Below, piece after piece: positions 36,111-46,000 of a stretch of DNA of 53,703 nt; positions within the stretch are counted from its first letter, which is position 1, and every line of letters starts with the position of its first letter. The stretch lies in contig CAJXPR010000011.1 in the NCBI GenBank assembly GCA_913058135.1, positions 1 to 53,703 of the forward strand, read 5' to 3'. Origin of the DNA: an uncultured Gammaproteobacteria bacterium. Its GTDB lineage: Bacteria > Pseudomonadota > Gammaproteobacteria > Pseudomonadales > Pseudohongiellaceae. The notes beneath the pieces are model-generated. The model had not been told where the DNA came from and did not search any database. It saw only the letters and a list, made by a program, of their open reading frames with translations. The position numbers and the translations under genes were made by a program.

Positions 36111-38303
36111 TCAGTGCACGCGCGCGGCGTTCAGTGTAGAAGCCTGGGCGAGGCGCTGTGAGAGGTAATGCTGGTGTTCGCTCCATTCCTGCTCGGACCA
36201 GAGGTTGTTTTTGATCATCATGCGCTGGTCATCGTAGGCTTCTCTGGAGCGCCGGCTCAGGCCAATGCCGGTCACCGACTCCATCGCCATGACCCCTTCC
36301 ATCAAGCGTCGCTGCCATTCCATGCCAGCGCCCAGCGAATCCAGCAGAGCCAGATAGTCCGGTGAATACAGCACATGATCCGGGAAGTACTTTTCGGCAG
36401 CGTGGGTCACGTTGAACAGACGTCGCAAGTGGACCGGCGGCAGATTTTGCCAGTAGTGCACGCCACGCTCCAGGTCGCCGACCATGAACGCCAGCACACC
36501 ATTGTTGTAATAAAAGTCCGGGTGTTCCCGCAGCGCCGCGAAGTAGCTCGGCGTATCTGCCTGTATATCGCCGGCCAGCACGCCCATAATGACCTCGGAG
36601 TAGTGCGCCAGTATGCCCTCCAGATCCACCTCACGTTGCTGATTAAGGTAAATCTGGGCCTGCCGGAAGTCCCCCAGGGTTGCCAGGTTGACAGCCACCG
36701 AGCCCAGGAAGGCGACATGATAGGGCCGCTGTTGTAGCTGGTTCTTGCGTGCCAATACTGTATCAGTGGGGGTCAGAATATTGGTACGGTAACTCCAGGC
36801 TTCGTCCGGGGATATCTCAAAGGGCCCGGCTTCCGTTGCCTGTGCCAGGAAGCGTTCGGCTTCGTCATACATGCGCGCACCAATCAGCAGCAGGGCGTAG
36901 TGGCTGAGCGCAAAGTGGGGCGGGTTGCCGGACAATATCTGCTCGCGCAGCTGCATCTCCTGCTGGACGTAGCTGGAGCCGCGCAAGCGCAGCTTGATGG
37001 CGTAAATAGAATCCAGGATGTCGCTGTCCGGATTGATCTGCGAGATCTGCCGGTGAGTGTCCAGTACCAGCTGATACATCTTGTCGATCTTGTCGGCGCC
37101 GCTGTAGACAGCCAGATTGTTGGCGGCCGTGGCGATACCGTGGTAAGCGTTGAGAAATCCCGGATCAAGGGCTATGGCGGCCTGGTGGGACTCAATGGCG
37201 CGCTCCCAGTCTGCAGGACTGAACTGGTTATTATAGAATTCCCCGCGCAGAAAATGCTCGTAGGCCAGGGCGTTGGTGGTACCCCAGTCTCGCATCTGAG
37301 TGCGCTCACTCTCGTTCAGGTAAACCCGTAATGCGCTGGTGACGTTGGAGACGATCTGATCCTGGACGGCAAAAATATCATTCATGGGCAGGTCGAACTG
37401 GTCGGAATACTCCCGCAGCCCGTCACTGGCACGGACAAGTTCCACGATCACCCGCAGCCGGCCGTCAGAAATCATAACACTGCCTTGCAGAACATGATCC
37501 GCCTGTTGCAGATAACTGTCATCATAGCGCTGGCTGGCCGCCAGCAGTTCGGCATTGCGCGCCGGAGACAGCACCTGCAGGTGTCCCAGCTTGGACAGCC
37601 CGTGAATCAGCGACTCCCGGATGCCTTCAGCAAGGATCTGGTTTTCATCGCTGAAATCCCGTGACGCGAAGGGCATCACCGCCAACTGGACGACGCCATT
37701 CGCTTCCGGCGTGGTCTTCGGGCTGCGCAGGAACAGGGGAGCACTGATGACCAGGGCGCTGAGCATCGCGGCCACGGCGAGCTTTCGCCATAGCGTCCAC
37801 GTGGCGGTTCGCTCGGGCGAGCTCACCGGGATGTCCGCTGATGTATTTTCGGGTGCTCTGGTACCGGTAGTAGTTTCTTCGCCAGCGCCGGGAAGACTGT
37901 CGATGCCGTCCTCCGGCCGCAGGTCAGCTGCCGGCTGCGTCGCCGTGTCGGACGAAACTGAGACGTGGGCGATCAGAGTGTAACCGCGTTTGGGAATGGT
38001 TTTGATGTAGCTGGGATTGTGGGCGTCGTCCTGCAGGGCACTACGTAATTCGGCAATTGCCTTGTGAACAGCATGGTCAGTGGCGATCGGCGATCGCCAG
38101 ATGGTTTCCAGAAACTCGCCCGGGCTGACGACATTGCCAGCATGTTCGATCAGCAGCTTGAGAACGTCCATGCTGCGGGGGGTGATCTTGGTTTCTTCGC
38201 CGTTTTTTTCGACCGTGCAGGCACCCGGTGACACTTGCCAGTCACCAATTCTGAGAGCTCTGTAGTCGTGCGTATATGATGTCTTTTTATCGGCCATGGG
38301 CAT
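36111..38303 (-). CDS. Membrane winged-helix regulator with TolB-like and TPR-type sensor
   Basis: 730 aa. Residues 15-113 form an OmpR-type winged helix (VVSPGEFLETIWRSPIATDH, SYIKTIPKRGYTLIA). A Thr/Pro-rich linker follows, then one membrane helix at about 174-193. The periplasmic part begins with a TolB/FlgO-like domain (QLAVMPFASRDFSDENQILAEGIRESL). It continues with helical repeat-like segments (about 360-690) of the tetratricopeptide kind. The build resembles CadC-type one-component sensors, with a large extracytoplasmic repeat domain that suggests protein or glycan sensing. It probably regulates the adjacent TonB receptor and itself. Starts at 38303 or 38297 (MADKK) are both possible. 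Confidence 0.85.
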   Translation of the reverse strand: MPMADKKTSYTHDYRALRIGDWQVSPGACTVEKNGEETKITPRSMDVLKLLIEHAGNVVSPGEFLETIWRSPIATDHAVHKAIAELRSALQDDAHNPSYIKTIPKRGYTLIAHVSVSSDTATQPAADLRPEDGIDSLPGAGEETTTGTRAPENTSADIPVSSPERTATWTLWRKLAVAAMLSALVISAPLFLRSPKTTPEANGVVQLAVMPFASRDFSDENQILAEGIRESLIHGLSKLGHLQVLSPARNAELLAASQRYDDSYLQQADHVLQGSVMISDGRLRVIVELVRASDGLREYSDQFDLPMNDIFAVQDQIVSNVTSALRVYLNESERTQMRDWGTTNALAYEHFLRGEFYNNQFSPADWERAIESHQAAIALDPGFLNAYHGIATAANNLAVYSGADKIDKMYQLVLDTHRQISQINPDSDILDSIYAIKLRLRGSSYVQQEMQLREQILSGNPPHFALSHYALLLIGARMYDEAERFLAQATEAGPFEISPDEAWSYRTNILTPTDTVLARKNQLQQRPYHVAFLGSVAVNLATLGDFRQAQIYLNQQREVDLEGILAHYSEVIMGVLAGDIQADTPSYFAALREHPDFYYNNGVLAFMVGDLERGVHYWQNLPPVHLRRLFNVTHAAEKYFPDHVLYSPDYLALLDSLGAGMEWQRRLMEGVMAMESVTGIGLSRRSREAYDDQRMMIKNNLWSEQEWSEHQHYLSQRLAQASTLNAARVH

Positions 38304-38776
38304 GTTTTCTTTTTATACCAGTATGCAAACAAATACTACGTCAAAGGTCAAGATTTTACGTCAAGGATTTGACTTCTGTTTTAATCTAGCTCAAGACCAT
38401 CAGAGAACTGTTATCCTGTTGTCACCAAAATCTCTCCTGCAGGATATGGCGTGTATTATGCTGAGTCTCGTTTCATGCCATCGCCAGTTTAGCAATGAAG
38501 ATGCAATAAAAGGGCCAGCACCGGTCGCTGGTTCGTCGCGGGCAGGCTGTAATGTCACCGTCGGGCAATGCGCCACACTGGTGCCAGACGACCTGCGATG
38601 CACCACTAGAGTGCCTGTAAACGCGGGCCCGATGCTGTTTTAGTAGGTTTTGGGAATCTTTCTGGCAGGACTTTGTTCTTTATATTGGGCGATAATGCCA
38701 GTGTACAAGCAGTCCGGGGTGGTATCGTTGTCAACTACCCCGATTTACAAGAATTAGATCGCAGAGGATTACATCC
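38304..38776. other. Divergent intergenic region with TTGAC repeats
   Basis: 473 bases between the regulator gene (-) and the amine oxidase gene (+), with no protein gene supported. TACGTCAA occurs at 38337-38344 and 38357-38364 with GGTCAAG between and TTTGAC at 38368-38373. On the minus strand this is TTGAC three times within about 30 bases, 34-70 bases upstream of the regulator's start. An extended -10-like TGGTATAAA lies only eight bases before that start. The right half contains a GGTA/TACC inverted repeat near 38718-38743 and AGAGG at 38762 as the ribosome site of the + gene. Confidence 0.5.
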
Positions 38777-40348
38777 GTGACAAAACCCGTTTCCCGTCGA
38801 GAATTTTTGAATCTGATAGCCGCCACTGGCGGCGTCGCCACCGTGTTGGGCATTGGCGGCGCGCTGGGTCTCATTCCCGGCACCACCTCTGCAAGTGCGC
38901 CCAACCTGATGGCACTGAATGGCCAGCGCAAGCGCGTGGTGATTCTGGGAGGTGGCATTTCCGGTCTGACCACCGCTTACGAGCTGGGCAAAGCCGGTTA
39001 TGACTGCACGGTACTGGAAGCATCTCATCGATGCGGCGGACGTGTGATGACAGTGCGTCACGGCGACCTGATCGATGAGATAGGCAATCCACAGATCTGT
39101 CAGTTCGATGACGAACCGCATTTGTATTTCAACTGTGGTGCCGCCCGGATTCCCAGCACTCATGCCAACGTGCTGGCTTATTGCAAAGAGCTGGGTGTCG
39201 ATCTGGAAATGTTCATCAATGAGAACAAACAGGCCCTGGTGCATGATCCTGACCTGAATGGTGGCGTACCCATGCGCAACATCGACATCAGCACCAACCT
39301 GAAAGGGTTCATGGCCGAGCTGATGTGGAAAGGGTATAACAATACCGAGCTGGATCAACCGTTTACTGACGAGGAAGCGGAGAAAATTGTCGCTCTGATC
39401 CGGCAGTTTGGCGACCTGGACGCCAGTGGTGAATACCACGGTAGCGGGCGTGCCGGCTATGTCTCGGGCGGGTATATTGATGAAGGCGTACATCACGAAA
39501 TGATCAACATTCGTGACATTCTCAAGGCCAATGTGGGTCTGCTGCGCTCGACGTTGCTGGAAAACGAGGGCGAGACGGCGCCAATGCTGATGCAGCCGGT
39601 GCATGGCATGGATAACATCATCAAAGGGTTTACCCGTCAGCTTGAGGGCAAGATTGAATATCATGCGATGGTCATGGGCGTCTACGACCGCGGCGACACC
39701 GTTGAAATTGTTTATGATCAGGATGGCGAACGTCACCGAATCGAGGCGGACTACGTATTCAACTGTATTCCTTCGCATTTGATGGTCGGTATCGACAACA
39801 ACCTGCCCGAGGCCTATATCACCGCGATGCGACAGATTGGTCGGGGCGAGGCCTATAAAGGCGCTTTCCAGATGAAAGAGCGGTTCTGGGAAAAAGAGAA
39901 CATTTACGGCGGTATCACCTGGACCAACCAGCCCATTCGCCAGCTGTGGTATCCCTTCCATGGACTGCTGAAACAGAAGGGTGTCATGCTGGCAGCCTAT
40001 GATTACGGTGGCGGTTCCGGATTTATGCGTCTGAATCATGAGGAACGTATTGAGGCCATGCTGGCGCAGGGCGAAAAGGTGCATCCGCAATACCGGGAGA
40101 TGGCTGAGCACGGTATCACCATCGCCTGGCACCGGATGAATCACATGCTGGGCTGTTCTGCTCGCTGGGGCCAGATGACACCGGAAAAAACCGAGTTCTA
40201 CCGCTTGCTGCAACAACCCAGCGGGCGGCACTACTTTATCGGTGATCAGGTAAGTATTCACGCAGCCTGGATGGAAAGTGCGATTCAATCAGCCCATTGG
40301 GCCATGGCGCACCTGGATCAGCGTGTTCGCAGCGAAGCTGGCGTTTGA
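38777..40348 (+). CDS. Exported flavin amine oxidase-like NAD(P)/FAD oxidoreductase
   Basis: 523 aa from a GTG (38777) with AGAGG nine bases upstream. The leader SRREFLNLIAATGG is Tat-type, consistent with export of a folded flavoprotein. FAD binding is at VVILGGGISGLTTAYEL with the downstream Glu in LEASHRCGGRV. The fold belongs to the amine oxidase/monoamine oxidase family (PF01593), and the end GRHYFIGDQVSIHAAWMESA is the C-terminal FAD segment. It would oxidise an amine or amino acid in the periplasm with release of hydrogen peroxide or electrons to a carrier. The substrate is unknown. The gene ends just upstream of the FNR box. Confidence 0.88.
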   Translation: MTKPVSRREFLNLIAATGGVATVLGIGGALGLIPGTTSASAPNLMALNGQRKRVVILGGGISGLTTAYELGKAGYDCTVLEASHRCGGRVMTVRHGDLIDEIGNPQICQFDDEPHLYFNCGAARIPSTHANVLAYCKELGVDLEMFINENKQALVHDPDLNGGVPMRNIDISTNLKGFMAELMWKGYNNTELDQPFTDEEAEKIVALIRQFGDLDASGEYHGSGRAGYVSGGYIDEGVHHEMINIRDILKANVGLLRSTLLENEGETAPMLMQPVHGMDNIIKGFTRQLEGKIEYHAMVMGVYDRGDTVEIVYDQDGERHRIEADYVFNCIPSHLMVGIDNNLPEAYITAMRQIGRGEAYKGAFQMKERFWEKENIYGGITWTNQPIRQLWYPFHGLLKQKGVMLAAYDYGGGSGFMRLNHEERIEAMLAQGEKVHPQYREMAEHGITIAWHRMNHMLGCSARWGQMTPEKTEFYRLLQQPSGRHYFIGDQVSIHAAWMESAIQSAHWAMAHLDQRVRSEAGV

Positions 40349-40360
40349 TTTATTGGCAGT

Positions 40361-40402
40361 TTGATCTGCATCAAAATCAGGTAATCCCGCTGAACTTAGT
40401 AT
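40361..40402 (+). promoter_or_regulatory. FNR/ANR box with class II promoter for the 130-aa secreted protein
   Basis: TTGATCTGCATCAA at 40361-40374 matches the FNR consensus TTGAT-N4-ATCAA at all ten specified bases. TAGTAT at 40397-40402 could be the -10. A start of transcription at 40409 would put the box centre (40367.5) exactly at -41.5, the position of FNR-activated class II promoters. This would imply induction when oxygen is low. Confidence 0.7.
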
Positions 40403-40448
40403 GACGTGGTTTAGTTTAATCACCGATGACTGATAGGCGGGAGATACC

Positions 40449-40841
40449 ATGATAAATAAATCAACTCTGCAGAAAACCTTGCTGGCTGCCAGCCTGCTGC
40501 TGGGCGGCCAGACTGCAATGGCGCAGATTGAAGGTGTGTACAAGTCTGATAGCGACGACGATTGCATCGTTACTATTTCCGAGATCAACATTCCCGCGCC
40601 CAAGTTTGGCGACGGCTATTACCGGATCGAATCACGTGGCGTAGCGGCATGCATGTGGGATGGCGTAGGCATCTCCATCTCTACAAACCTGACTGGCGGT
40701 TATGTGACCCTGCCGCCGGTACACAACCGTGTGAGTATCAATGCCAAGTGGCTTTTTGGCCCCACCAGCCCCAAAATCGAAATTGAACAACGCAACGCAG
40801 CTGGCGAGCATGTGCTGACCGGTACCTTTACGCGACAATAA
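40449..40841 (+). CDS. Hypothetical small secreted protein
   Basis: 130 aa with a clear signal peptide cleaved near AMA-Q (residue 25), leaving about 105 residues in the periplasm. I do not recognise the family. The mature part begins GVYKSDSDDDCIV with an acidic loop, has two cysteines (39 and 68) that may form one disulfide, and ends in NAAGEHVLTGTFTRQ. Alternating hydrophobic residues suggest a small beta-barrel or sandwich. GCGGGAG precedes the ATG. The FNR box upstream suggests low-oxygen control. It may be specific to this lineage. Confidence 0.75.
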   Translation: MINKSTLQKTLLAASLLLGGQTAMAQIEGVYKSDSDDDCIVTISEINIPAPKFGDGYYRIESRGVAACMWDGVGISISTNLTGGYVTLPPVHNRVSINAKWLFGPTSPKIEIEQRNAAGEHVLTGTFTRQ

Positions 40842-41015
40842 ACGTCGATCGTCATTCGTCTCAGGACGCACAGGGGGCTGCGGGGAAGCAGCTCCCGATG
40901 CCTGCTCCGAACTGCCTTCACAACAAGTTGAATGCATTCACTATCTGTTGAACTGCGGCACAAGCTGGTTTAGTCTTCTTGTTTCGCCGAACAACCGTGT
41001 CAGGAGCAAAAATAA

Positions 41016-42656
41016 ATGACAATGCAACAGACTCCACTTTTAATGCACCGGCTGATGGATCGGGGCGCCATGCTGCAACCTGATGTTGAAGTCATGACGG
41101 CCACCGCCGATGGTGCCCGCAGCCAGACCATGCTGGAGACCCGCAACCGTGCCCACCAGTTGGCCCATGCATTAAACGACGCAGGCATCGGGATAGGCGA
41201 CCGGGTCGGTACCTTTATGTGGAACGGTGCCCGACACCTGGAGGCTTATCACGCAGTTGCCTGCATGGGCGCGGTGATTCACACGCTCAACATCCGTCTG
41301 TCTCCTGTTGACCTCGAATACATCATCAATCACGCGCAGGACAAACTTATCATTGTTGATGCCGATATCCTGCCGGCGCTGGAAAAGCTGGCAGGCAAGA
41401 TGCCCAGCGTGGAAACAATCGTGGTCGCAGCGGAGCCCGGTTTCGAGAACTGGGAAACCAGCCTGCCCAATGCCATTGACTACGAAGAATTTATCAAGGG
41501 CAAAGCCACCAAATATCAATGGCCGGAGATCGACGAGAACTCAGCCATGGGCTTGTGCTACACCAGCGGTACTACTGGCAAGCCCAAAGGCGTCATGTAT
41601 ACCCACCGTGCCAATTACCTGCACACGGTTGCTATTGCCATGACCGATGTCATGGGCCTGTCAGCGACTGACACGCTGCTTGGTATTGTGCCGATGTTTC
41701 ATGCCAACGCCTGGGGTCTGCCCTGGGTCGCATGCATGCTGGGCATGAAGCAGGTGTACCCGCACCGCTTTATGGTGCCGGACCATCTGGCGCGCATGAT
41801 CATGGATTATGACGTGACTATTTCTGCCGGTGTGCCCACCATCTGGCAAGGTGTTAAAGGCCTGATTGAAGCCAATCCCGGCAAGTACAAGTTCAGCGCG
41901 TTGACGCGGCTTACCTGCGGTGGGTCTGCGCCACCCCCGTCGCTGATCGAGTGGTTCTGGGATGCGCTGGGCGTGGAGATGGTGCAGGGCTGGGGCATGA
42001 CCGAAACCAGTCCGCTGGCCACCATCAGTCGTCGTACCGGCAAGCGTAAACATCTGGAGATGGGCGATGCCGAACGTGCCGCCAATCAGGCAAAAGCTGG
42101 CCTGCCAATTCCGGGGCTGGAAATCGAGATTTTTGATGACAAGTGGAACGTGTTGCCGCACGACGGCAAGGCATTCGGCGAGCTGCTGATCCGCGGCCCC
42201 TGGATCTGTTCCGAGTACTTTAATAATCCGCAGCCGGATAAATTCCACGACGGCTGGCTGATCACCGGTGACGTTGCCAAAATTGACCCGGAAGGCTACA
42301 TCATCATTACCGACCGCTCCAAGGATCTGATCAAGTCGGGTGGTGAATGGATATCATCGGTGGACCTGGAAAATCACATCGCAGGTATGCCTGCCGTTGC
42401 GCAGGCCTGCGTCGTGGCGCATCCGCACCCACGCTGGGATGAACGCCCCGTGGCGCTGGTTATCAAAAAACCGGACGCGGAACTGACCCCGGAACAGGTT
42501 ATCGCACACTGCGACGGCAAGTTCGCAAAATGGCAGCTACCGGACGATGTGCTGTTCGTGGATTCAATTCCGCTGACCGCCACGGGCAAAATGGACAAGA
42601 AAGTCGTCCGCGCCCAACTCGAAGCCGACGGCTACAAACTGCCCGACCAACGCTGA
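41016..42656 (+). CDS. Acyl-CoA synthetase (medium/long-chain fatty acid CoA ligase)
   Basis: 546 aa. It forms acyl-adenylates and then acyl-CoA in the cytoplasm. The AMP-binding (ANL) motifs are YTSGTTGKPKGVMYTHR, PMFHANAWGLPWV, GWGMTETSPLATIS, and GWLITGDVAKIDPEGY, with the C-terminal lysine in LTATGKMDKKVV. The overall similarity is to medium-chain ligases of the AlkK type. AGGAG nine bases before the start supports 41016. A second in-frame ATG two codons on is less likely. It is the last + gene before a large palindromic element, and could feed the acyl-CoA dehydrogenase encoded further on. Confidence 0.9.
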   Translation: MTMQQTPLLMHRLMDRGAMLQPDVEVMTATADGARSQTMLETRNRAHQLAHALNDAGIGIGDRVGTFMWNGARHLEAYHAVACMGAVIHTLNIRLSPVDLEYIINHAQDKLIIVDADILPALEKLAGKMPSVETIVVAAEPGFENWETSLPNAIDYEEFIKGKATKYQWPEIDENSAMGLCYTSGTTGKPKGVMYTHRANYLHTVAIAMTDVMGLSATDTLLGIVPMFHANAWGLPWVACMLGMKQVYPHRFMVPDHLARMIMDYDVTISAGVPTIWQGVKGLIEANPGKYKFSALTRLTCGGSAPPPSLIEWFWDALGVEMVQGWGMTETSPLATISRRTGKRKHLEMGDAERAANQAKAGLPIPGLEIEIFDDKWNVLPHDGKAFGELLIRGPWICSEYFNNPQPDKFHDGWLITGDVAKIDPEGYIIITDRSKDLIKSGGEWISSVDLENHIAGMPAVAQACVVAHPHPRWDERPVALVIKKPDAELTPEQVIAHCDGKFAKWQLPDDVLFVDSIPLTATGKMDKKVVRAQLEADGYKLPDQR

Positions 42657-42731
42657 CCAGGGCAGCTGCGTTTAGTCAGGGCATGTGGGGATGCGAACGT
42701 TCCGAGGCGGATCGCTATGGACGGCGGAAGT

Positions 42732-42759
42732 GCAGGTTTTGTCAGGGTCTAAAACCTGC
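42732..42759. repeat. Isolated 9-bp hairpin
   Basis: GCAGGTTTT at 42732-42740 and AAAACCTGC at 42751-42759 with a ten-base loop. It lies 75 bases after the acyl-CoA ligase stop and has no T-tract, so it is a poor terminator. Confidence 0.6.
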
Positions 42760-42826
42760 CGACTCCATGCTCCCACCTGCTCTGAGAGCGTCGGCTTTCT
42801 GATCAGCGTTCCGAATTTTCTTGGAA

Positions 42827-42968
42827 GCCCGCAATAACTCAATTGCGGGCACAAGCCTGTCGGGACTGATTGATACCTGAAGGGGCTTGTGCGGCAGGGA
42901 GGCCGCACAAGAGCCCCCACGGATGGGTTTACGGCGTCCCCTGAAGGTATCAATCAGTCCCGACAGGC
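42827..42968. repeat. Nested palindromic element (possible REP/MITE-like element or bidirectional terminator)
   Basis: It begins with a 9-bp hairpin (GCCCGCAAT 42827-42835, ATTGCGGGC 42842-42850). A 24-bp perfect inverted repeat follows: 42855-42878 with 42945-42968, extended by AGGGG/CCCCT after two mismatches. Inside is a 10-bp hairpin CTTGTGCGGC (42886-42895) / GCCGCACAAG (42902-42911). GCACAAGCC (42849-42857) can alternatively pair with GGCTTGTGC (42884-42892), so two folds compete. Similar GGTTTACGGCGTC-type repeats are common between genes in gammaproteobacteria, as far as I recall. Confidence 0.75.
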
Positions 42969-43005
42969 GGTTTCAAAACGGAGCCCGTTCTTGCCGAAGT
43001 AAAAT

Positions 43006-46000
43006 CTAAACTTTCCCCATGACTGGTTCATCCGCAATATTTACACTCACCGGTTTCAATGTTAACCGGCACACAGCGGGAACGACCAGCAGCGTCAGCA
43101 CCGTAGAAGCCAACAACCCCGAGATAATCGCCCACGCCATTGGCGGCCACAATGTCGACGCTGAAAATGCCAGCGGCAGTAAACCCGCCACCGTGGTTGC
43201 TGTGGTCAACAGAATAGGGCGGGTACGCCGGGCCACTGCATCACTGACTGCCGCATTGATCGAAGCGCCGTCCCGCAATCTCTGATCGACCCTGTCGAGC
43301 AACACGATGGCATTATTAACCACGATCCCGACCAGCGCGATGATTCCCAGCAGCGGCTGAAAGCCAAACGGCGAGCCGCTGAGCACCAGGCCGGGAACAA
43401 TACCGGCGGCTGCCAGGGGGACTGTCAGTAATATGATGCCCACCCGCGCGAAGGAATTAAACTGCACAATCAGAAAGAACAGCAACAGCAACAGTCCGAT
43501 GGGAGCGGTATTTAGAATTGCCTGATTGGCTTCACCCGATCCTTCCAGATCACCACCAAGTTCCATGCGGGTGCCAGCAGGGAGCGGGTCGTCCTCGAGT
43601 CGTGCATTCAGTATTTCCAGGATCTGGCTGAAACTGTAACCTGGCGCCAGTCCTGCGGTGATTGAATAGACACGGACGCCATTTCGATGTTGTATGCCTG
43701 CTTCCTGCCAGTCGGCCTCCATGCCGGCCACCAGGCTGAGTGGGATTGCCTCGCCGTTAGCGTTGTAAACATAACTGGACAGCAGCTGCGATATGTCCAG
43801 CGCCGGTCCTTCCGGCGAACGCAGCACCAGTGGTATGGGGTCCAGCTCCTGTCGGTACTGTTCGGTACCAAAACCAAAGCTGCGGGCAAACAGCGTTTGA
43901 GCGACATCGGCGCGGCTGACGCCGTGGCGCTGCGCGCTGGCATCATCCACTACCGTGCGCAGCACCGGCGTACCCAGGTCGATGTCATGCCTGACATCAA
44001 CAGCACCGGGTATCGATTTCAGCAGGCGAAAAATGTGTTCGGCGGCGGCCAGCCGGGTATTGTTATCGGCATGGTAGAGCCGAACCTCCACCGGGGCGAC
44101 CCGCGGCGGACCCTGTGCCAGTGTGCCGGCAACTATATTTATCTCCGGCAAGGTGGTGGCAGCGTGTTCGCGAGCCCAGCGGATAAAGCCCTCCGTATCT
44201 TCCAGGGACGTCATATTGACGACCAGCCGTGCCCGGTTCGGAGCGCGCGTCGCATTCGGTAAATTGTAGTAAAAACCCGGGCCGGTAAAACCGACAAATC
44301 GGTGCACTGATACGACGTTATCCTGCTCACGGGTGAGGCGTTCAAAATCTGCAGATACCTGATCGGTATAGGCCTGGTCGGTGCCCTCAGGCAGGAATAT
44401 TTCAATGACTACCTGCGGACGATCGGCATTCGGGAAAAACTGGACGTTGAGTTGGCTGCTCAATAACATGCTGGCTGCTACCAGCACTATCCCGGTGACG
44501 ATTATCAGGCGGGGCCGGGCGGCGCTGAGCGCCGCCAGCCATGCGCCCAGCCGGTCAAACCAGATACTGCGCCGGGCTTGTTGCTGCGGCAAAAACCAGG
44601 CCGCCAGCAGTGGTGCCACACTTATCGCCAGCAAATAACTGACGCTGAGAGTGAGCATGATCATCACCGGAATGCCACGCGTGAAATCCGCCGTGCCGCC
44701 ACTGGACAGCAATAAAGGCGTGAAGGCAGCAAGGGTGGTACCGGTGGACGCTCCCAGGGGGCCGGCCAGTTCACGTACGCCAAGCAGCATGGCTTGCTGC
44801 CGGCTGTGGCCTTCGCCCAGATAGTTCTGGATGCTCTCGATCATGACAATGGCGTTATCGATCAGTATGCCCAGCGATATCACCAACCCTATCACCGCGA
44901 TCTGATGCAGGACGCCGCCGCCCAGGTCATAAAGCCCCAGACTGATCAGTGTCACCAGCGGCAGCATGGCGGCAACCAGAATACCCATCCGCCAGCCCAT
45001 GCCCAAAAATACTACCAGGGTAATTATAAGCATGCTTAACAGCAGACTTCCCTGCAGATCGCTCAGACGTGACTCGACCTGGTCAGGCTGAAAAAACAGC
45101 TCCCTGATTTCCAGCGGCGCGAATTCAGGCGCCAGTATGTTGATCCGCTGTCGTAACGTTTCGCCAAAACCAATGGCATCAACCTGATTATCCTGGATAA
45201 AAACGTTCAGTGCCACGATCCGTTCGCCGTCCATCCAGGTTGCTGGCTGTTCGGGTTGTATTGCGGTCCGATTGATATCGGCAATGCTCGCCAGTGGCAC
45301 GGACCCGCCGCCGGGCAGAGCGATCTGGGTACGACGAACAGAGGCCAGGTCTTCGAACTCATTGTTACTTAGCAGGCTGACGCGCTTGCTGTCCACGACG
45401 ATAAAACCGCCTGGAGAAACCTGGTTGCGCTGTCCGATCAGGCCCGCCAGGTAACCCGGACTGATACCCAGTCGGTTAAGCTCTGCGTCTTTAACAGCAA
45501 TAGTGATCTGTTCATCAGCATGTCCCTCAATTTCAATGCGTGACAAACCAGGCAGATCAGCCAACTGGCGCTTGAGGCGCTCGGCTGCCAAAGAGAGCGT
45601 CACCACCGAGGGGTCGCCAGCCATGGCCAATACTACTGCCGGGTTGGACGTCAGACGGTCGTCCAGGTCCATCTGCCTGACGCCATCGGGAAACTCCAGC
45701 CGCGCTCGTTCCATAGCCTGGCGGACGCGTTCCCAGGCCGGATCGGTGTCGTACAGGCTGTCCTGCAAACCAATGGTGACCAGTGCCACGCCGCTGCGAG
45801 CCACAGCGGAATATTCCAGCACCTCTTCTACCTGCGAGATTTCATCCTGCAAGGGTTCCAGGATGAGGCGCTCCAGTGCATCGGCGGTAGCCCCCGGATA
45901 CAGAACCGTAATAAGTCCGTTGCGCGCCGGGAATACCGGGTCTTCCTGTCGGGCCATATTGCCGAAAGAAGCCAGGCCCGCCAGGGTAAGCATGATGACA

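Follow-up and report, generated by a model that had tools for sequence, protein, structure and literature searches.

Within the window (the whole 53,703-nt stretch of DNA that was analysed), the gene of a 130-aa orphan protein lies between a flavin amine oxidase gene and an acyl-CoA ligase gene, and it is preceded by an FNR/Anr box and a -10-like hexamer. The features are as follows:

38777..40348, + strand: flavin amine oxidase with a twin-arginine-like N-terminus (SRREFL, by eye), a conserved upstream neighbour
40361..40374, no strand assigned: FNR/Anr box TTGATCTGCATCAA with perfect dyad half-sites (sequence match and conservation in relatives)
40397..40402, + strand: -10-like hexamer TAGTAT, 22 nt 3' of the box (sequence; TANNNT at 21-22 nt in 21 of 22 family loci)
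40409..40409, + strand: putative transcription start, placed by geometry only, with the box centre at -41.5
40439..40443, + strand: GGGAG, a ribosome-binding-site-like run 5 nt 5' of the ATG (read from the sequence)
40449..40841, + strand: CDS of the 130-aa orphan, putatively exported protein (family 1; an open reading frame with no Pfam, NCBIfam or PDB-sequence match)
40449..40523, + strand: putative Sec-type signal peptide, residues 1-25, MINKSTLQKTLLAASLLLGGQTAMA before QI (by eye; residues 9-23 have a pLDDT <50 in the model)
40563..40565, + strand: Cys39 codon, invariant in alignments
40650..40652, + strand: Cys68 codon, invariant in alignments, with a possible disulfide to Cys39
41016..42656, + strand: acyl-CoA ligase, the downstream neighbour in conserved order (family match, synteny)

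The dyad TTGATCTGCATCAA shows 0 mismatches against TTGATNNNNATCAA and is the sole perfect match within the 53.7-kb window, while the own genome holds 8 perfect boxes in 3.78 Mb, so that any particular stretch of 150 bp would contain one with an expectation of ~3e-4. An earlier note on this DNA, made from the sequence letters, had described a perfect box with TAGTAT at class II spacing, which our analysis bears out. It had also put the box at exactly -41.5, and here the spacing to the -10 hexamer fits, but the figure itself is one that we deduce from the -10 position: the box centre (40367.5) lies 41.5 nt upstream of the presumed start at 40409, and a -10 at 21-22 nt agrees with a centre near -41.5. 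At 16-18 nt spacing to the -10, the -35 hexamer is poor (0-2 of 6 positions identical to TTGACA), which argues for an activator at the box; no sigma-70 promoter pair was found in 40200-41050. Note that no Rfam match was found in 38200-43100, and that the region 3' of the 130-aa gene folds little better than its shuffles (z -1.23; 24 of 200 shuffles as good). The locus thus carries the features of a class II FNR promoter, namely the TTGATNNNNATCAA dyad, a weak -35 and, in the genome, an FNR with Fe-S cysteines. Such promoters are ordinary: in PMC3688515, 19 of the 23 directly FNR-activated E. coli promoters with a known start are class II, and ydfZ is given as an FNR-activated gene of unknown function. 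Likewise, PMC6588701 treats the Anr/FNR consensus and its use for regulon prediction as standard, and the Anr core targets listed in its abstract (hemN, azu, gltP, oprG and others) include none like the 130-aa protein. The present promoter shares with the class II FNR/Anr promoters (E. coli narG, dmsA and ydfZ; the Pseudomonas Anr core regulon) the dyad, the probable centre near -41.5 and the poor -35, but its start is predicted from sequence and its target is a lineage-restricted, putatively exported barrel.

Conservation of the box was examined in the family loci with upstream DNA, and a box with at least 9 of the 10 consensus bases is present in all 22 of them, whereas the earlier note had named its absence from orthologs as the outcome that would speak against the proposal. 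The box is perfect (10/10) in 18 of the 22, and a TANNNT -10 is located 21-22 nt past it in 21. In family 1 (14 loci, from the own genome, 12 genus-mates and one genome of another genus), the box is perfect in 13 and keeps 9/10 bases in L005, and TANNNT lies 21-22 nt downstream in 13, with a weaker AATACT in L011. Since the box centre lies anywhere between 72 and 165 nt from the ATG in this family, the conserved unit is the one that runs from the box to the -10. Among eight divergent representatives, column identity reaches 0.975 in the half-sites (10 columns), against 0.554 in the spacer (4 columns) and 0.335 in the flanks. In addition, ten of the 11 syntenic loci L042-L052 (3.2-12.4 kb) display a single perfect box, each time preceding the 130-aa gene, and no perfect box was found in L045.

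The same arrangement is found in a second family of paralogs (family 2; L015-L021 and L053-L058), which shares 32-36% identity with family 1 within the genus and has the same two invariant cysteines and the same barrel model. Among the seven family 2 loci of the family search, the box is perfect in five, each time followed at 22 nt by TACACT, that of L019 keeps 9/10 bases with the same -10, and L018 is cut by the contig end such that the box region is absent. More distant homologs from another genus (L104 and L105) contain TTGATTTAGGTCAA, with 9/10 bases, followed 21 nt past the box by TAAACT and TATTAT, respectively. The two families are thus alike in the FNR box with its -10 at 21-22 nt, whereas their neighbours differ: family 2 lies beside an ABC transporter with a solute-binding protein (Pfam) and not beside an amine oxidase, and its locus adjoins what we take to be pth and ychF. 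The window's own genome has only one family match, which belongs to family 1.

These patterns bear on the reading in which the box is a chance palindrome, or a repressor site, with no activating role. Indeed, among 40 perfect boxes fetched from elsewhere in five relatives (12 of 14 in G001, 8 of 10 in G010, 9 of 10 in G012, 10 of 11 in G013 and 1 of 5 in G003), 26 lie inside open reading frames of more than 120 codons and 14 do not. Perfect boxes by themselves are weak evidence and often occur by chance; what decides is conservation at one place. Here, however, at least 9/10 bases are kept throughout the family and the -10 follows at a nearly fixed distance, while the spacer varies, which makes a chance palindrome or a repressor site without activating role very improbable.

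An activator at the box could be FNR itself. The own genome encodes an FNR (L036) that scores 269 bits on the Fnr model, against a curated cut-off of 228, with an N-terminal CxxCx5C, an internal Cys and an ETVSR recognition helix read from its sequence; the roles of its cysteines and recognition-helix residues are presumably those familiar from FNR. A DNR/NnrR-type NO-sensing regulator, or another CRP/FNR paralog, could act at the box instead, given that the genome has nine HTH_Crp_2 matches (seven above cut-off), that L040 has an E..SR-like helix (ESVSR) and L039 a weak FnrL match, and that DNR and NnrR are FNR-like regulators (PMC1274295). However, among the five HTH_Crp_2 proteins read, L036 alone exceeds the Fnr cut-off and L041 the CRP cut-off, the other three staying below both, and narG was not found in the genome. 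Moreover, the relative G007 has a protein with a best Fnr-model score of 57.9 bits, perhaps the counterpart of the own-genome C90 protein (62.1 bits), yet lacks both FNR and the 130-aa gene. We therefore regard another binder as unlikely, and FNR as the favoured activator.

The distribution of FNR in the genus (15 genomes) is in line with this preference. FNR above cut-off is found in 14 of the 15 genomes and so is a family member, G007 having neither. Three points together suggest that the gene was likely lost: the listed completeness of G007 is 100%, its amine oxidase and that of the window share 93% identity, and its amine oxidase and acyl-CoA ligase genes have remained adjacent, without the 130-aa gene. 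By eye, the DNA just 5' of the acyl-CoA ligase is still recognisable there. The co-loss of FNR and the family lends weak support to the FNR link, as it is a single event with a chance of ~1 in 15 if losses are random. In G005, which lacks family 1, family 2 and FNR are both present, and FNR also occurs without the family gene in other genera of the Pseudohongiellaceae (G015, G017, G021, G024 and G025). Note that a perfect box beside the amine oxidase of G007 was left uncounted, as the 130-aa gene is gone and the palindrome lies inside a GC-rich hairpin (by eye).

As a positive control, ccoN was examined in nine loci, three of which carry a box at class II spacing: perfect at 21 nt in G001, and with one mismatch at 21 nt in G014 and at 23 nt in G009. 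In G008, G010 and G012, one-mismatch sites lie ~760 bp upstream of ccoN, and no site with at most one mismatch was found in G003, in G013 or in the own fragment L113, which is truncated at a contig edge. No ccoN was found in G007, nor in G011, where the 130-aa gene and FNR are present. G007 (L109, L112) appears as a natural Pseudohongiella variant without FNR, ccoN or either barrel family, and this FNR-less relative, in which the barrel family is gone, offers a useful comparison. Altogether, the phylogenetic footprint and the presence of FNR in the genome, with a weak contribution from the co-loss, strongly support a putative oxygen-responsive FNR promoter in front of the predicted exported orphan protein.

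The amine oxidase upstream invites a different interpretation, in which the two genes would form an oxygen switch, with the oxidase expressed aerobically and the 130-aa protein anaerobically. The order amine oxidase, 130-aa gene, acyl-CoA ligase is indeed kept in all 11 loci L042-L052, and both proteins look exported: the amine oxidase begins with a twin-arginine-like export signal (window 38777-38850, SRREFLNLIAATGG, by eye), which suggests a periplasmic enzyme. A functional tie between the two proteins is therefore possible. However, the box follows the stop of the amine oxidase by 12 bp and, lying behind that gene, cannot be its promoter. Upstream of the amine oxidase, a scan of ~480 bp (with starts partly estimated) in 11 loci, namely the window and ten of L042-L052 (L046 being too short), gave two-mismatch sites in five loci, each common to at most two of them (one in the window and L042, one in L043, and one in L051 and L052), and no box in the other six. 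In addition, an intrinsic terminator separates the amine oxidase from the 130-aa gene in three of the five relatives scanned, namely L045, L051 and L050, the last of which belongs to the cultured Pseudohongiella nitratireducens SCS-49; the scans of L049 and L042 gave none, and read-through from the amine oxidase is possible in the window's clade. Finally, the box is shared by family 2, whose loci, where read, show no such amine oxidase alongside. The switch proposed by the earlier note thus finds the box behind the oxidase, no genus-wide box before it and terminators between the genes in most of the scanned relatives, and we consider it very unlikely. The amine oxidase may be controlled by a divergently oriented, conserved neighbour (window 36111-38303), a 730-aa winged-helix regulator that is CadC-like and shows weak TPR-like matches.

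The product of the 130-aa gene had been described as a protein of an unknown family with a signal peptide, and the open reading frame at 40449-40841, the absence of any family match and the peptide recognised by eye all agree with this. No Pfam match was obtained at E<=1 for any of 18 family members, and the 130-aa protein itself had no NCBIfam match at E<=0.01 and none among PDB sequences at E<=1. Besides the two cysteines, the residues invariant in the alignments include G29, Y31, S33, W70, G74, F103-G104-P105 and E111. Structure prediction, which the earlier note had asked for, gave an exported beta-barrel model of eight antiparallel strands over ~105 residues: the AlphaFold models of families 1 and 2 have eight strands each, with a mean pLDDT of 74.9 and 77.1, but they are not independent, as the two alignments share members. 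Structure comparison returned Z values of 8 to 11 over 84-115 aligned residues (rmsd 2.4-5.0) with many unlike barrels, and Foldseek gave no match at E<=0.001 for the barrel models. A specific fold assignment was dropped because Cap15, avidins, de novo barrels and TbpB barrels (as well as hemophilins) score alike; the models point to a likely 8-stranded barrel fold class rather than to a particular relative. The protein shares this predicted barrel with the calycin-like and avidin-like proteins (avidins, Cap15, TbpB/HphA, lipocalins) but differs from them in having no Pfam match, and a remote kinship is possible. A GxY near the first strand and a closing FTR/FTK resemble what we take to be the calycin GxW...R/K pattern.

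Family 1 orthologs occur in 13 of the 15 genus genomes (the own genome included) and in one genome of another genus. Profile searches, each in a sample of a larger group, detected members in 8 of the 390 genomes from the order (six of the genus and two of another Pseudohongiellaceae genus) and in 1 of 369 genomes of the class, which is the own genome. A named scan gave 17 loci, in records named Pseudohongiella or Gammaproteobacteria bacterium, plus a 'Rhodoferax'-labelled bin (two loci). As records named Pseudohongiella are among its genus-mates, we assign the window to this genus. That bin, 'Rhodoferax sp. OV413' (L044 and L055; CALQJO020000022.1 and CALQJO020000002.1), has Pseudohongiella gene order and sequences, and its label is probably wrong. 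Among the genomes examined, the barrel family is confined to the Pseudohongiellaceae. A literature search on Pseudohongiella and FNR returned nothing relevant. While the promoter type is known, the putatively secreted barrel family is seemingly undescribed so far as judged by Pfam, NCBIfam and this literature search.

We consider it probable (about 0.82) that an FNR-activated class II promoter drives the exported barrel at low oxygen. The course of events that we infer, from the start site, FNR as the binder and the low-oxygen induction to the export, the disulfide and the ligand binding, would be the following. When oxygen falls, the [4Fe-4S] FNR of Pseudohongiella would occupy the dyad (40361-40374), where it overlaps the poor -35, and would act as a class II activator that brings RNA polymerase to the -10, TAGTAT. 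An mRNA for one exported protein would then be transcribed from ~40409, and this protein would shed its 25-residue signal peptide and fold in the periplasm (or outside) into a small antiparallel barrel of 8 strands, which one disulfide, between Cys39 and Cys68, probably holds together. The 130-aa protein is thus probably made when oxygen is low, and its likeliest role, as far as the fold class can suggest one, would be the binding of a partner protein or small ligand that microoxic respiration requires. As a more tentative conjecture, to which we give well under even odds, these undescribed exported disulfide barrels, duplicated in the Pseudohongiellaceae with both copies under FNR, would carry a ligand in the periplasm (e.g., heme, NO or a quinone-like compound) or serve the respiratory chain as a partner under microoxic conditions, and would disappear when FNR and the cbb3 oxidase are lost. 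An orphan exported family hereby gains a candidate condition, i.e., low oxygen and FNR dependence, which provides a handle on life at low oxygen in a marine group of which metagenome bins supply most of what is known.

Some further observations concern two other loci. The first open reading frame of L037 (L037:2-40, the start of G000:C129) begins with ACLVGSEMCIRDR, which resembles a known adapter-read artefact of metagenome assemblies, so that this contig end may be artefactual. On L036 (1911-3241), the fnr gene adjoins a universal stress protein gene, and a perfect box, TTGATTGAGATCAA, lies upstream of the latter gene, between it and a divergent open reading frame; similar boxes occur at a like position in G003 (L098) and G013 (L088).
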